Of a stretch of DNA of 41,104 nt, positions 1,465-9,518 are shown piece by piece. The notes below the pieces were generated by a model. It had not been told where the DNA came from. It saw only the letters and a list, made by a program, of their open reading frames with translations, and made no database searches. Position numbers and translations under genes: made by a program. The DNA comes from a virus. The stretch is from positions 1 through 41,104 of IMG/VR virus record IMGVR_UViG_3300035183_000528. One strand, written 5' to 3'. Positions within the stretch are counted from its first letter, which is position 1. Each line of letters opens with the position of its first letter.

Positions 1465-1836
1465 TTAATTGGGGTTTTGATGACCCGTAAGAGATTTCGC
1501 TAACCATACCAACGCTAAAAATATAGCATCTTTATCTCTCTCGTCTTGCGGCAAATCATAAAAGGGCAATAAATCGGGGTGTGTCTTTTTTTCTATATCT
1601 CTTTTCTCTCCATATTTCCATCCCATTTCAAAATAAGACTTCATCCAAGAATTGTGGGCCTCTTCGGGTGTTGGTAATTGTTCCATAGCCATATATTTTT
1701 TAACTACTTCAATCATTTGATTTCTAAACTTCTCATCTCGTTCTTCCCATTTTTCTGGAATAATGCTTCGTTTAGACCAAATTGCCTCTAATCTTGCTGC
1801 TTCGTAAATAAGTTCCGTTATTTTTTCTTCTTTCAT
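1465..1836 (-). CDS. Hypothetical early phage protein (123 aa)
   Basis: It starts MKEEKITELIYEAARLEAIW after the conserved leader. It is a soluble, mostly helical protein rich in Glu, Lys and Trp, with a middle LPTPEEAHNSWMKSYFEMGW and a C-terminal DAIFLALVWLAKSLTG helix. The EEAHNSWMKSYFEMGWKYG part resembles host-interaction or regulatory phage proteins only in composition; no family was recognised. It is the longest of the leader-preceded genes and lies between 1439 and 1836 in the collinear early array. Confidence 0.68.
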   Translation of the reverse strand: MKEEKITELIYEAARLEAIWSKRSIIPEKWEERDEKFRNQMIEVVKKYMAMEQLPTPEEAHNSWMKSYFEMGWKYGEKRDIEKKTHPDLLPFYDLPQDERDKDAIFLALVWLAKSLTGHQNPN

Positions 1837-1845
1837 AGTTTTAAT

Positions 1846-2085
1846 TTAAAGTTCTGATTTAATTTTCTTTATCAACGCCAATAACTTCTTTCTCGACCAA
1901 GTTTTTTCATTTTTTATTTCCTTTTCCAGCTCTCCTAGAATTTCTTTTGTTATAACCCCTCTTATATGGCGATAAGTAATCTCCGCCAAGCGTTCAGACT
2001 CTCCTATGGGAATTCTGTATGCATAAAGAGTCACAAAAATAACATTTTTTATTCTGGTTTTCCAATCTAGTTTAACGCAAAGCAT
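1846..2085 (-). CDS. Hypothetical early phage protein (79 aa)
   Basis: The ATG at 2085 starts one base after the stop of the preceding gene (2087), so the two are translationally coupled. It lacks the conserved leader seen in the genes to its left. The sequence is basic and helical, with IPIGESERLAEITYRHIRG in the middle and paired Lys-rich helices at the C-terminus (EILGELEKEIKNEKTW, LLALIKKIKSEL). The stop codon lies within the leader of the next gene (start 1836). No function is recognised. Confidence 0.68.
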   Translation of the reverse strand: MLCVKLDWKTRIKNVIFVTLYAYRIPIGESERLAEITYRHIRGVITKEILGELEKEIKNEKTWSRKKLLALIKKIKSEL

Positions 2086-2086
2086 A

Positions 2087-2641
2087 TTATTTTTTCTCTT
2101 CTTCAGAGATTTTTTCTTCGGCTACTTTTACAAGCTCTGCCTCAAAGTGTTTAAGCAATAATGCCCAAATTTCATTCTTACCTTCATTAGTCAATTCAAG
2201 GTTGCCATCAATTAGACCAGCCTTGTAGAGCTTTTGAAGCTCTGGCGATAATATTCTTTTAAGTGTTGAAGTTAATTTTTGCATGGTAGTTTTAGGCAAA
2301 ATAATATATTGACTTGTATATGGACTACCTAACTTCCATGTCCAAGAACAACTAGAACTAGAATCTGTTAGATAACAAGTGGTTTCAATATCATTTTGCC
2401 TTCTTAAAATTTCTATTTCTCCTGGGCTCGACCAGTTTATCCACCAAGAGTATTTATAACCTTTTGTAGAGGGGTGAATAGAACCAACAGCCCCATCTCT
2501 CTCGTTTTGCCAAACAAAAAATCCACAATCATCTATTTCGCCTATCTCACCCTCAAGAAACCCCCAATAAGAATAAGTATTTCCGTTCGTCCTTACCCAG
2601 TCTCCAACTTTTAATTTTCCTCTTGCTTCTGATATTTTCAT
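2087..2641 (-). CDS. Hypothetical protein: SH3-like N-terminus, helical C-terminal domain (184 aa)
   Basis: The N-terminal half (LKVGDWVRTNGNTYSYWGF ... GEIGEID) looks like a small SH3-type beta barrel that could bind nucleic acid or protein. The C-terminal half (ILSPELQKLYKAGLIDGN, LELTNEGKNEIWALLLKHF) is a helical segment of a type I have seen at the ends of many unrelated phage proteins. A serine/cysteine-rich linker (SSSSCSW) joins the two. It is translated just after the nuclease gene (stop/start 2 bases apart). Function unknown; I am confident that it is coding. Confidence 0.75.
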   Translation of the reverse strand: MKISEARGKLKVGDWVRTNGNTYSYWGFLEGEIGEIDDCGFFVWQNERDGAVGSIHPSTKGYKYSWWINWSSPGEIEILRRQNDIETTCYLTDSSSSCSWTWKLGSPYTSQYIILPKTTMQKLTSTLKRILSPELQKLYKAGLIDGNLELTNEGKNEIWALLLKHFEAELVKVAEEKISEEEKK

Positions 2642-2642
2642 A

Positions 2643-2981
2643 TTACTCTTTAAAAAACTTTAATAGCCTTTCAAATAAGCTATAGCTCATCATTACATAA
2701 CTGCCTTCCATTGGCTTATACGGCGGATGCCATATAACCACAAACTCCTGATAACCAAGACTTTCTCTTTCTACCTGCTTCATAAACTTATTTGCCCTGA
2801 AAGTCTTTGTATTCTTGCACTCAATGGTTATTGGCAACTTGGTAGCGATATCGCCCTTCAGTCGACCACTGCCCGAGCCAATTTCTGGACGAGCCTGAGG
2901 GTCAATACCGGTATGCCTAAATCTCTCGGCTACCCATTTTTCTAATAACTTACCCTTTTGTTTGGCGCTTCTAGGTTTCAT
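2643..2981 (-). CDS. PD-(D/E)XK nuclease, resolvase-like (112 aa)
   Basis: The chain carries the signature of small PD-(D/E)XK nucleases: E14 in the first helix (KGKLLEKWVAER), a Gly/Ser-rich turn, D44 in KGDIATKLP, and E54-C-K56 in ITIECKN. D-x9-E-x-K is the metal-binding core. Such proteins cut branched DNA (Holliday junction resolvase, VRR-NUC or RusA-like role) or help phage recombination; which of these cannot be told. Its neighbours are small early DNA-metabolism-type genes. The C-terminal half (YQEFVVIWHPPYKPM) completes the beta sheet. Spacing to neighbours is 1-9 bases, so it is part of one operon. Confidence 0.8.
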   Translation of the reverse strand: MKPRSAKQKGKLLEKWVAERFRHTGIDPQARPEIGSGSGRLKGDIATKLPITIECKNTKTFRANKFMKQVERESLGYQEFVVIWHPPYKPMEGSYVMMSYSLFERLLKFFKE

Positions 2982-2990
2982 AAAAATTAA

Positions 2991-3281
2991 CTATTCCTCT
3001 TGTCCTTCTTCTATCAGAGCCTCCAATTCTTGTTCTATCTGTTTATCCGATTTTGCTTCGTGAGCATTAGGGAAAAATTCGTTAATATACCTATCAACTA
3101 GGCGGTCAGGCATATCAGAGAGAAAGAATTCAACTTGTTGGTCTATCCACTGCTTATCTTTTTCAGTTAGAGTGGGCTCCTGATTATTATTAAGCTTATG
3201 CTCCATTAGCACTTTATAAACTACTTGTCTTAGGATTAAGACGTCCCTCCTTAGATATTTTTTTATAGCTAGCCTATCCAT
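2991..3281 (-). CDS. Hypothetical early protein (96 aa)
   Basis: The sequence starts MDRLAIKKYLRRDVLILRQV and is highly charged and helical, ending in an acidic tail (QELEALIEEGQEE). A middle segment WIDQQVEFFLSDMPDRLVDRYINEFF looks like two packed helices. The start overlaps the end of the upstream gene (3274-3456) by eight bases, a sign of translational coupling. No family was recognised. The order coiled-coil protein, this protein, nuclease suggests that the three may act together, which is inference from position only. Confidence 0.72.
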   Translation of the reverse strand: MDRLAIKKYLRRDVLILRQVVYKVLMEHKLNNNQEPTLTEKDKQWIDQQVEFFLSDMPDRLVDRYINEFFPNAHEAKSDKQIEQELEALIEEGQEE

Positions 3282-4053: not shown

Positions 4054-4083
4054 ATTATATTCTTAATGACACAACTATGTCAA
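4054..4083 (-). promoter_or_regulatory. Sigma70 promoter giving a leaderless mRNA
   Basis: Read on the - strand: TTGACA (4083-4078), 18-base spacer, TATAAT (4059-4054), then six bases and the ATG of the HTH gene at 4047. Both hexamers are perfect. The usual +1 falls on the A of the ATG, and there is no room for a ribosome-binding site. Confidence 0.75.
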
Positions 4084-5645: not shown

Positions 5646-5654
5646 AATATAAAA

Positions 5655-5950
5655 GCGAGTTTGAGGGTAAAACAGCCAGAAAACCCCTTCAAGACTACGC
5701 TAAAGCAATAAATAAATAAATTTAAGCTCTATTTAACGCCTAGACGGCGGCTAGCACTTGTTCGCCTGCTAGCTGACTAGATGTGTTTTCACCTCTCACC
5801 AAAACAGAAACATAAGCAATGAACAAAAAGGGCTGTATTGTCTTTAAGGAAGTTAGTAACGGATAAACTAGAACAGGAGCGGTAGGGCTGTTTTGATTGA
5901 CGGAACTACCAAGCTCTAGTTGCCGTTGCTATGGCTTGACCCTCAAAGCA
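5655..5950. ncRNA. Structured gap, candidate RNA or replication-related element
   Basis: The gap 5646-6001 holds no convincing gene (the longest - strand frame with an ATG is 13 codons). Its ends pair: TTTGAGGGT (about 5660-5668) with ACCCTCAAA (about 5939-5947). Inside are GGCTAGCA/TGCTAGC around 5751-5780, AACTA/TAGTT around 5904-5922, and AACAG/CTGTT around 5872-5895. An AT stretch with three AAAT units lies at 5706-5722. The closing helix plus internal hairpins fits a structured RNA, but the pairings are short and the strand is unclear. Confidence 0.3.
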
Positions 5951-6001
5951 AACAGCTTACTTTTCGCCATTCTTATATCCTGTTTTAGTCAAAAGCGAAA
6001 A

Positions 6002-7147: not shown

Positions 7148-7179
7148 AAAGCATGATTCCGTCTGTAAAATCATGCTTT
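7148..7179 (-). terminator. Intrinsic terminator
   Basis: AAAGCATGATT (7148-7158) and AATCATGCTTT (7169-7179) form a perfect 11-bp stem. On the - strand it is followed by a T-rich run (TTTTTTGTTT), placing it just downstream of the 238-residue gene (stop at 7224). Confidence 0.65.
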
Positions 7180-7223: not shown

Positions 7224-7940
7224 CTACCTATTTATTCTTTTTAATATACCTATAGCATGCCTTCTTACTATCTCATCTTCATAACTTAATAACTCGCCTA
7301 ATGTTATCTCTGTTATATTTTTGTCTTTTTGTTTATTTTTCAGCTCCTCAATCATCTTTATCCTCTTTTTATATTCTCTTTCAGCTTCTTCTTTTGCTTC
7401 TTCCAAAAGTCCGCTTTTGTTATAATCACCATAAAACCCCCAGCATCCTCCTACCTCCTCTTTATTGCCACTACCATCAACATCCTCTACCTCAATCATA
7501 TAACCATAAACATTGCCGCTTAAATAATCATTCCACTCATCTATTAAGCTTCTAGCTATTTCTCTAGCTTCTTTTTTATTTTTACAAATACCCCTTTTAA
7601 CCAAAACAAATCCTATTTGGCTGACATCCCACCCTCTATCGGGAAAATTGCCTTCATATGAAAAAGATAGTACTACTCCACCATGAATATACGCTTCTAA
7701 TCCAAATAAGTAATATTTTTTCAATATCTCTTTGCAGCCTTCGTCTTCCTCTCCTCTTGCAATAGCAATAGCACACTCTTTAGTAATGATATCATCCCTC
7801 TTTACCGTGAAGTCTCTATGATATGCTACTATAAAAACCTCATCACTATGCCATCTATCCGGAGAAGGAGAAGTGTCGTCTCTATATACATTTATATTTA
7901 TACCATCTTTATACTTTATTTTTTCTATTAAATCCTCCAT
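7224..7940 (-). CDS. Hypothetical phage protein with CWGFYGD motif (238 aa)
   Basis: The protein is acidic and soluble, with DRWHSDEVFIVAYHRDF near the start, a middle EAYIHGGVVLSFSYEGNFP, then NVYGYMIEVEDVDG followed by GGCWGFYGD near residue 170. The combination of YGY.IE and a C-W-G-F-Y-G-D box is a pattern I know from uncharacterised proteins of large phages and mobile elements. A charged coiled coil and a HEAT-like tail (YEDEIVRRHAIGIL) end the chain. A hairpin AAAGAG/CTCTTT (7948-7967) lies eight bases before the ATG and could hinder or help initiation. A terminator follows at 7148-7179. The function is unknown. Confidence 0.78.
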   Translation of the reverse strand: MEDLIEKIKYKDGININVYRDDTSPSPDRWHSDEVFIVAYHRDFTVKRDDIITKECAIAIARGEEDEGCKEILKKYYLFGLEAYIHGGVVLSFSYEGNFPDRGWDVSQIGFVLVKRGICKNKKEAREIARSLIDEWNDYLSGNVYGYMIEVEDVDGSGNKEEVGGCWGFYGDYNKSGLLEEAKEEAEREYKKRIKMIEELKNKQKDKNITEITLGELLSYEDEIVRRHAIGILKRINR

Positions 7941-8031
7941 TTTTTTGAAAGAGCAGACGGTCTCTTTTTATTAATCCCCTCTCTCTTGCTCGCCACTACC
8001 CGCTGGCATAATGACGGGCAAGGACAAAGGA

Positions 8032-8253
8032 TTAAAATCTTTTATCCTTCTTGACTTTTCGCCTCGCTTCTATCAATTCCAGCATCGAAACATCATCTTT
8101 ATCATTTTTGCTTGTTAACTCGCTTTTATAGTAATCCGCCCACCTTGGACAGTGGCGTATAAGAATGTCAGCAATGTCTAGATATGTCCCAAGGGGCACC
8201 CCCCAGTGCTCAGGAAACAAGATAGCATTTGCAATAGCGTTTGTTTTTATCAC
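8032..8253 (-). CDS. Hypothetical protein downstream of a structured 5' RNA (73 aa)
   Basis: A GTG at 8253 starts MIKTNAIANAILFPEHWGVP, then LGTYLDIADILIRHCPRWADY and a basic C-terminus (EARRKVKKDKRF). The first half is hydrophobic, the rest charged. No family was recognised. A clear promoter (8450-8477) and a compact structured RNA (8270-8404) precede it with only 16 bases between the RNA's closing helix and the GTG, so expression is probably controlled through that 5' region. The gap 7941-8031 to the next gene holds a CTTGC..GCAAG hairpin and no gene. Confidence 0.62.
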   Translation of the reverse strand: MIKTNAIANAILFPEHWGVPLGTYLDIADILIRHCPRWADYYKSELTSKNDKDDVSMLELIEARRKVKKDKRF

Positions 8254-8269
8254 ATTTTAATGTGCCAAC

Positions 8270-8404
8270 GGACACGATTTTTCTTTTTTGCCGTCTCCGC
8301 TTGTAACCGCAAGGCGACGGCGAGGCTACGGGCTTTCAGGGCATTTGCTTTTTTTGATACCGGGACGCCGTAGCTAGTCCATCTTAGCCGTCAGGCTAGT
8401 GTCC
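8270..8404 (-). ncRNA. Three-hairpin junction RNA, possible riboswitch-like 5' leader
   Basis: GGACAC (8270-8275) pairs with GTGTCC (8399-8404). Inside this closing helix are TAGCC-GTCA-GGCTA (8385-8398), GCTACGG/CCGTAGC (8325-8331 with 8368-8374), and GCCGTC/GACGGC (8290-8295 with 8316-8321) carrying an inner CTTG/CAAG stem. The block is GC-rich within AT-rich DNA. A sigma70 promoter at 8450-8477 points through it on the - strand towards the gene at 8253. The GUGUC of the closing helix can instead form a GUGUC-CGUU-GGCAC hairpin (8262-8275) just before the start codon: a possible on/off switch. Confidence 0.55.
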
Positions 8405-8449
8405 TAATTACTACGCAAGCCGCCCCAGTTATCAACACTTTATAACTCT

Positions 8450-8477
8450 ATTATATTCTTTTTAATACCTGTGTCAA
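8450..8477 (-). promoter_or_regulatory. Sigma70 promoter for the structured RNA and downstream gene
   Basis: On the - strand: TTGACA (8477-8472), 16-base spacer, TATAAT (8455-8450). Both boxes are perfect. The expected start near 8443 lies about 40 bases before the closing helix of the structured RNA. Confidence 0.72.
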
Positions 8478-8484
8478 GTCTAGT

Positions 8485-8530
8485 TATTCACAACCAGCCG
8501 TGAATAGAAATAACCGCCGGCAGGCGTTAT
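8485..8530 (-). terminator. Two adjacent hairpins, probable terminator upstream of the promoter
   Basis: TATTCAC/GTGAATA (8485-8491 with 8500-8506) is a perfect 7-bp hairpin. ATAACCGCC/GGCGTTAT (8510-8518 with 8523-8530) forms a second one with one bulge. On the - strand the GC-rich hairpin is followed by TTTCTATT, which would stop transcripts from the 66-residue gene (8795-8995) before the next promoter. Confidence 0.45.
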
Positions 8531-8794
8531 TATATAACCATGTAATTATATAATTATATCAGATTAGTTAATTCTATAGTTATTTATTACTTTATAATTA
8601 TACACAATAACCAGACTATAATATATTGAAGAGGTACCGACGGGGTTAATCCTTCCCTTCCCTTCCGTTCCGTTATCTTCCGTTACGTTACGTGTTAATT
8701 TAATTATATTATATTACATATAATTTATCCGGTTATAGATTTTGACATACGGATAGTTTTTTTTAAGAAAAGGAGAAGGCGAGGGCAGTCCCCT
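8531..8794. other. AT-rich, iteron-like stretch; candidate replication origin or control region
   Basis: There is no gene here. 8531-8640 is almost pure A/T with repeated ATTATAT words. 8651-8695 is a run of short direct repeats: CTTCC three times, then TTCCGTT variants and ACGTT twice. Its complement GGAAGGGAAGGGAAGG could form a two-tier G-quadruplex. 8696-8730 is again A/T only. Repeats beside an easily melted stretch, between oppositely directed gene blocks, is the usual look of an origin or a control region. Confidence 0.35.
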
Positions 8795-8995
8795 CTAAAT
8801 TGGCAAAGACTCTTGAATTTCTGATTTATTTATCAAGGATTTATCAACTTTCTTATCAATTTTCTTCCTTATTCCACATTTTGTACATAGTTCGCCGACA
8901 ATAACTTTATCATCTTCAACTACTATTTGTTTTGTATGTCCTGTATATTTTCCGTTTACTATACATGGAATTACTTTTACCTGATAATAAGCCAT
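8795..8995 (-). CDS. Small CxxC protein (66 aa)
   Basis: The start ATG at 8995 (MAYYQVKVIPCIVNGKYTGH) is preferred over an upstream in-frame start at 9142, because the upstream part (residues before MAYY) is low-quality sequence crossing a dyad. The protein is beta-rich, then has CTKCG near residues 43-47, and ends with a lysine-rich helix (KIDKKVDKSLINKSEIQ). Together with C11 the CxxC could hold a metal or form a small zinc knuckle. Function unknown. The two hairpins at 8485-8530 may terminate it. Confidence 0.58.
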   Translation of the reverse strand: MAYYQVKVIPCIVNGKYTGHTKQIVVEDDKVIVGELCTKCGIRKKIDKKVDKSLINKSEIQESLPI

Positions 8996-9095
8996 AATTA
9001 AAATAATTAAAATATAATATCCAGGAAGGCGGAGCCAGAAGGAAAGTTCCCCTGCGCTTTTCTTTTCTAAAATCGGGGGCTGTGGATAACTTCTA

Positions 9096-9125
9096 TTGAC
9101 TACATTGTGCGACACAGTGTAGTAT
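9096..9125 (+). promoter_or_regulatory. Possible + strand promoter with an operator-like dyad in its spacer
   Basis: TTGACT (9096-9101), 18 bases, TAGTAT (9120-9125). The dyad 9099-9123, ACTACA-T-TGTG ... CACA-G-TGTAGT, is palindromic over 11 of 12 positions (counting one G-T pair) and covers the spacer and both box edges. This is the classic place for a repressor. Downstream an ATG at 9131 opens a frame, but it runs across the terminator and tRNA-like RNA, so I do not call a gene. Confidence 0.4.
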
Positions 9126-9277
9126 TGGTAATGAGCTCTCAAACTGACTTAATGCCTTCTGTGATTATATCCAGTATAGGCGTCGCCGTCGGATTGAGTC
9201 TCCTGACTTTTAACAAAAGAAAAGAGCTCGCAAGGCAGTCAGGATTTAACCCCTGCACCTTGCTAGGCTTTTTAGCT

Positions 9278-9315
9278 AAAACAAAAACCTTCCTTGCTTG
9301 GGGGGTTTTTGTTTT
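9278..9315 (-). terminator. Intrinsic terminator of the tRNA-like RNA unit
   Basis: AAAACAAAAACC (9278-9289) and GGTTTTTGTTTT (9304-9315) are perfect 12-bp arms around a 14-base loop. It lies directly downstream, on the - strand, of the tRNA-like RNA and may also stop + strand transcripts from 9096-9125. Confidence 0.6.
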
Positions 9316-9316
9316 T

Positions 9317-9421
9317 AACTTAGATAAGCCATGTGGGCCGCTAGGGAGTCGAACCCTAGACAATGTACATTGTACCCTTTCAAACCAGTAGGCCCTGAGA
9401 GGTGAAGACTATATCTTCACC
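9317..9421 (-). ncRNA. tRNA-like RNA with its own promoter and terminator
   Basis: From the promoter at 9428-9455 the expected +1 is the G at 9421. The RNA opens with a perfect hairpin GGTGAAGA-TATAG-TCTTCACC (9401-9421). Next comes GGGCC (9395-9391), pairing with GGCCC (9339-9335) like an acceptor helix, then the 14-base palindrome ACAATGTACATTGT (9360-9373) and a textbook T arm, CTAGGG-TTCGACT-CCCTAG (9341-9359). Between GGGCC and GGCCC there is no D arm and no proper 7-base anticodon loop; the span is 61 bases. It may be a degenerate tRNA, a tRNA mimic or an attachment-site remnant of a host tRNA 3' half. Confidence 0.5.
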
Positions 9422-9427
9422 ATTTTC

Positions 9428-9455
9428 ATTTTAGCAAAATAAAAATTTGAGTCAA
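9428..9455 (-). promoter_or_regulatory. Promoter of the tRNA-like RNA
   Basis: On the - strand: TTGACT (9455-9450), 16-base spacer, TAAAAT (9433-9428). +1 six bases on is G9421, the first base of the hairpin 9401-9421. It is divergent from the terminase promoter at 9490-9518; the two -35 regions are 34 bases apart. Confidence 0.55.
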
Positions 9456-9489
9456 TAGGGACTTGTCAACAATGTCGTACAATTTTTAA

Positions 9490-9518
9490 TTGACAAGACA
9501 ATTTTTTGAATATATTTT
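9490..9518 (+). promoter_or_regulatory. Late-block promoter giving a leaderless terminase mRNA
   Basis: TTGACA (9490-9495), 17-base spacer, TATTTT (9513-9518), seven bases, ATG at 9526. The mRNA should start at or one base before the ATG. The TTG of the -35 box is itself an in-frame start codon, which makes a false longer frame. Confidence 0.72.

Follow-up and report, generated by a model that had tools for sequence, protein, structure and literature searches.

Known RNA structures at the start of transcripts that most resemble the locus described here include: (i) 5'-terminal stem-loops that stabilise bacterial mRNA, as established for ompA and papA in papers cited in PMC3997798, and (ii) put RNA, which is ~70 nt in length, forms two stem-loops and, in the case of HK022 putL, acts on RNA polymerase right after the early promoter (PMC9378689). 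The present locus is a GC-rich block of 190 nt (8443-8254, minus strand) that lies downstream of a strong promoter in the IMG/VR virus record IMGVR_UViG_3300035183_000528. The window, i.e., the whole stretch of DNA analysed, spans 41,104 bases, with a tailed-phage late operon on the plus strand and small early genes on the minus strand (Table 1). GC content peaks locally at ~0.54 in the block compared to ~0.33 in its surroundings. A first-pass annotation of the DNA had read the block as a cis-regulatory phage RNA, possibly a ligand-gated riboswitch of a new class; the part of this proposal that holds is a promoter-driven and partly structured 5' leader, whereas the riboswitch of a new class is without support.

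Table 1. Positions of the early unit, the conserved folded region and associated features (window coordinates unless a relative is named).
Feature	Position	Strand	Remarks
Perfect sigma70-type promoter, TTGACA-N16-TATAAT	8450-8477	-	
5'-terminal branched rod, 82 nt	8354-8435	-	MFE -36.4 kcal/mol; z -4.4 to -4.8 (post hoc); 0/200 shuffles
GGACAC, 5' arm of the proposed closing helix	8399-8404	-	Complementary to GUGUCC (8275-8270)
Hairpin GCCGUC...GACGGC	8290-8321	-	In block half 8352-8254 (z -0.1)
GUGUC-CGUU-GGCAC, proposed alternative hairpin	8262-8275	-	Present
ORF73, 73 codons, GTG start	8032-8253	-	Without Shine-Dalgarno; no recognised homologue
Intercistronic hairpin	7971-8035	-	Begins at the ORF73 stop codon; z -5.5, 0/200 shuffles
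238-aa gene, second cistron	7224-7940	-	PHROG 6186 family
Intrinsic-terminator-like hairpin	7148-7179	-	Closes the bicistronic unit
Conserved folded region	9130-9427; L008 7630-7966; L020 10085-10408; L049 5422-5672	-/+	
Late-direction promoters	9096; L008 7595; L019 13870; L020 10054; L024 7567; L049 5702		
Small-terminase candidate	9490	+	
Large terminase	10001	+	
SPP1-type portal	11483	+	
SU10-type capsid	21490	+	
L008 leader	L008 6982-6764	-	Perfect tandem promoters, then strongly folded rod (z -6.4), before first early gene

The early promoter and its proposed transcription unit

The promoter is a perfect copy of its consensus, as the first-pass annotation had described, and sites of this type number two in the 41-kb window compared to 0.05 expected. 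Transcription is expected to start near 8443. The corresponding place in all five relatives compared (L008, L019, L020, L024 and L049) has a TTGACA-type promoter. The second perfect promoter of the window is at 4054-4083 (minus strand), and its -10 box is separated by ~6 nt from a start codon (4047) further downstream; thus, a transcript from this site would be leaderless.

The GTG at 8253 opens a reading frame of 73 codons (ORF73) and is preceded by the end of the proposed helix at a distance of 16 bases, both as previously noted. The codon statistics of ORF73 are compatible with coding. No Shine-Dalgarno sequence was found upstream of the GTG, and no terminator-like site was found within the leader (8443-8254). 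The hairpin that begins at the stop codon of ORF73 occupies the most extreme of 684 windows in a folding scan of the whole 41 kb (120-nt windows). Homologues of the 238-aa gene that follows are found in L004, L005 and L020 (in the latter by inspection, ORF 8419-9093). Genes beyond the terminator-like hairpin have a promoter-like site of their own at 6913-6885.

Other features of the early genes are apparent in the relatives and elsewhere in the window. In L024, two alike hairpins (6510-6460 and 6138-6088, minus strand) lie directly 3' of early-gene stop codons; the two differ by two compensatory pairs, and after each of them come AAAGGTCGG, an AU-rich run and then the next start codon. The motif GGTCGG recurs in the early leaders of L020 and L049, with some matches inside genes. 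Most early genes at 550-1860 of the window (minus strand) begin behind an AT-rich string, ATTAAATTAAAACT-ATG, without a Shine-Dalgarno sequence.

Folding of the GC-rich block

The block had been described as compact and GC-rich, with a closing helix and three internal hairpins. The GC peak is real, but the first 82 nt are the only part to fold beyond its composition. The complete 190 nt have a z-score of -1.8 to -1.9 compared to shuffled sequences, and the corresponding window ranks 115th of 684 in the folding scan. The 5' part (8443-8353) has z-scores of -4.8 and -4.4 in two runs, with none of 200 shuffles as stable, while the 3' part (8352-8254) is at chance level (z -0.1). Thus, the real element is a 5'-terminal, branched rod. 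The rod begins ~8 nt past the inferred start near 8443, and is predicted to form by pairing of UUGAUA-a-CUGGGGCG to CGUCCCGG-UAUCAA, with an inner hairpin of UAGCC-UGAC-GGCUA. The limits of the rod were drawn after inspection and, thus, its z-score is post hoc; the first percentile of the whole-window scan is -4.25.

The helices invoked for a switch fare less well. The strands of the proposed closing helix (8404-8399/8275-8270) are complementary, yet their pairing probability is 0.000, forcing them to pair costs ~3.9 kcal/mol, and a 6-bp helix of this span turns up in 47% of shuffles. The GUGUC-CGUU-GGCAC sequence proposed to form the alternative fold exists, but has a pairing probability of ~0.03 and a counterpart in 13% of shuffles. 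Two global folds of nearly equal energy (-60.1 and -58.5 kcal/mol) are indeed predicted, although not the mutually exclusive pair originally envisaged: in these folds 8435-8420 pairs either locally or with ~8316-8305, the 5' side of the GCCGUC...GACGGC hairpin being the alternative partner. The local rod would be finished first during transcription, ahead of the competing global fold. A riboswitch-like appearance can come from GC-rich composition combined with one real 5'-terminal rod. The search of Rfam that had been recommended for the block (4227 models) gave no match at gathering or relaxed thresholds.

Relatives and the conserved region near the small terminase

The related phages were recovered by several routes: L008, L009, L010 and L011 by portal and capsid searches (with L019 and L020 as the upstream portions of the records of L010 and L011), L024 by scanning genomes with a portal alignment, and L049 by searching for a pattern of the upstream RNA element. 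L049 carries a related portal gene (ORF 1509-3272). The metagenome-assembled genome (MAG) in which L024 sits is named Candidatus Paceibacterota, which suggests the host group of these phages; the phage of the window probably infects Patescibacteria. The analysis links this phage group to hosts for which, to our knowledge, little phage gene regulation is known.

The only other copy of the block is on contig L003, a strain-level relative that is identical over the block and differs by 4 SNPs in 5.9 kb outside it; as none of these SNPs is in the block, L003 adds nothing on covariation. No further homologue was found in viral contigs, and a degenerate pattern of the rod matched only the identical contig. 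The leaders that follow the promoter in L019, L020, L024 and L049 are short and without a stable fold, and the L008 leader forms a strong but unrelated rod. When the block was aligned locally to each leader of the five relatives, no score was better than shuffles, and two further intergenic regions of the window gave unconvincing alignments (the best, 5646-6001, was equalled in 5 of 100 shuffles). The 73-residue gene is kept in none of the five related phages, and the first gene behind the promoter varies from phage to phage. By sequence comparison, the position of the promoter is conserved, while the leader and the first gene that follow it look like a module specific to each lineage. With its occurrence in one phage and its absence from five relatives, the block looks more like a structured leader of the ordinary kind than like a new riboswitch.

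Several matches were set aside. DNA matches in phage records and in 384 genomes from the class to which the host-like MAG belongs were short (19-47 nt, E 1e-5 to 0.01, scattered over the query) and were read as background. RNA models scored 20-26 bits in host-class genomes, which is close to background. A match of ORF73 in L002 (9 residues, on an unrelated GC-rich phage contig) is judged by the surrounding genes to be due to chance, and a pattern match in L021 belongs to an unrelated phage.

The small-terminase gene is separated from the early promoter by an intergenic region with collinear conserved blocks. Its terminase-proximal part (9427-9130, ~0.8 kb from the GC-rich block) is strongly folded in six of six phages (z -3.4 to -10.1), and is the strongest conserved RNA signal identified, better supported than the block. 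An 8-bp helix of this region is perfectly complementary in four lineages, and each change on one strand is compensated on the other: the window has UCCUGACU/AGUCAGGA, L020 has UCCUGACA/UGUCAGGA, L049 has UCCUAACA/UGUUAGGA and L008/L009 have UCCAUCUG/CAGAUGGA. The helix and the GNAGGNGUUAAAUCC hairpin are mutually exclusive, since they share a strand that is 5' in the helix and 3' in the hairpin. L008 is misplaced when the upstream region is aligned by MAFFT, and its helix was instead matched by direct search. The helix remains a lead, since it was found by direct search in few sequences, not by R-scape, and since the GUUAAAUCC hairpin is absent from L019 and L024.

Folding is about equally strong on the two strands of the 9427-9130 region, and there are promoters in either direction, with the early-strand promoter adjoining the terminase gene. 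Thus, the region may serve as a late-operon leader or as an RNA antisense to it. The chances appear evenly balanced that it is an undescribed structured RNA (either a leader switch of the late operon or an RNA antisense to that leader), next to which the GC-rich block would be a second, lineage-specific leader on the early side. It is a conserved, covarying candidate element at the early/late control region and is directly testable.

No Rfam match was found in the 9427-9130 region. Large phage RNAs of the GOLLD/ROOL type, considered for 9427-8700, gave no match in the whole window at the gathering threshold or in relaxed scans of 7900-8900, 9150-9500 and their counterparts in L020 and L049. 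A tRNA or tmRNA at 9400-9225 was likewise rejected, as ARAGORN at default thresholds finds none and the only match is weak and mascRNA-like. A tRNA-like sequence, GGGCC...CUAGGGUUCGACUCCCUAG-CGGCCCACA, is present at 9335-9395 (minus strand) in this lineage only, and has acceptor-like and T-arm-like stems, but neither a D arm nor an anticodon arm. The late-direction promoter of the window (9096-9125, plus strand) is a weak TTGACT-18-TAGTAT (9/12), with stronger promoters at the same place in the relatives; its spacer holds a dyad, ACTACAtTGTGcgaCACAgTGTAGT, that resembles a repressor operator. Between the early and late promoters, a AAACTACCC(C/G)TAAG motif is shared by the window (~8765-8740, AAACTATCCGTATG), L019, L020, L024 and L049, and could be a DNA site or an RNA.

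Interpretation and comparison with known leaders

The block is best explained, at a confidence that we place midway, as a structured 5' leader that is specific to this lineage, heads a bicistronic early mRNA and would act in cis on stability or elongation. We infer both the transcription of the unit as drawn and the function of the leader. RNA polymerase would start at the perfect promoter near 8443, and the first ~90 nt would fold co-transcriptionally into the stable 5'-terminal rod (8435-8354), to be followed by a loosely structured spacer, ORF73, the intercistronic hairpin, the 238-aa gene and the terminator. In cis, the rod would most likely shield the 5' end of the mRNA and set how stable or productive the early message is, possibly through the elongating polymerase in the manner of put RNA, rather than by way of a ligand. 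This reading is favoured by the rarity of the perfect promoter and its counterparts in the five relatives, by significant folding of only the 5'-terminal 82 nt, by the hairpin (8035-7971) and terminator-like site (7179-7148) that bound the cistrons, by the comparable hairpins right after two early-gene stop codons of L024, by the differences in leader and first gene among relatives, and by the precedent of the stabilising ompA and papA stem-loops. It is weakened by the post hoc limits of the rod and by the near equality in energy of the two global folds.

Other readings are less probable. The nascent leader may, by analogy to put RNA, bind RNA polymerase and confer resistance to pausing and termination, an unlikely alternative to which the position directly downstream of a strong early promoter (as in HK022 putL, PMC9378689), the compact rod with bulges and the terminator-like sites downstream on the same strand lend some weight; against it, the rod is a single branched structure of 82 nt instead of two adjacent stem-loops of ~70 nt in all, the genes past the 7179-7148 terminator have their own promoter-like site (6913-6885), and the rod is absent in relatives with the same operon position. 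It is also unlikely that the leader folds by GC-rich composition alone, without a specific RNA function: the modest z-score and rank of the whole block and its restriction to one lineage would fit, but the 5' domain is significant by itself. A trans-acting small RNA of ~190 nt with its own promoter would agree with the strength of that promoter and with a GC-rich block in an AT-rich genome, and is quite doubtful given that no terminator precedes ORF73 and that the 3' half has no structure beyond chance. Most improbable is a ligand-gated riboswitch or other switch on ORF73 translation, for the leader position and the two near-isoenergetic folds are outweighed by proposed helices at chance level, by the lack of a Shine-Dalgarno sequence or terminator to gate and of an aptamer shared with the five relatives, and by the lack of an Rfam match or of a homologue other than the strain-level copy.

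Read as a cis-acting early leader, the block can be compared to several known systems. Like translational riboswitches, it is located in a leader and has alternative folds close to a start codon, but differs in that it has no aptamer shared with the five relatives, no match to a known class and no ribosome-binding site to gate, and in that the helices proposed for it are at chance. The L008 leader differs from the block in fold, has no sequence similarity to it, and ends in a terminator-like hairpin. Compared to HK022 putL, the block is predicted to form one rod of 82 nt where put forms two stem-loops; alike are the location right after an early phage promoter and the compact, bulged structure. 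Compared to the ompA and papA leaders of E. coli, the block is a phage leader that is longer, branched and predicted from sequence, and it shares with them a stable stem-loop placed a few nt from the (inferred) 5' end and before the first cistron.
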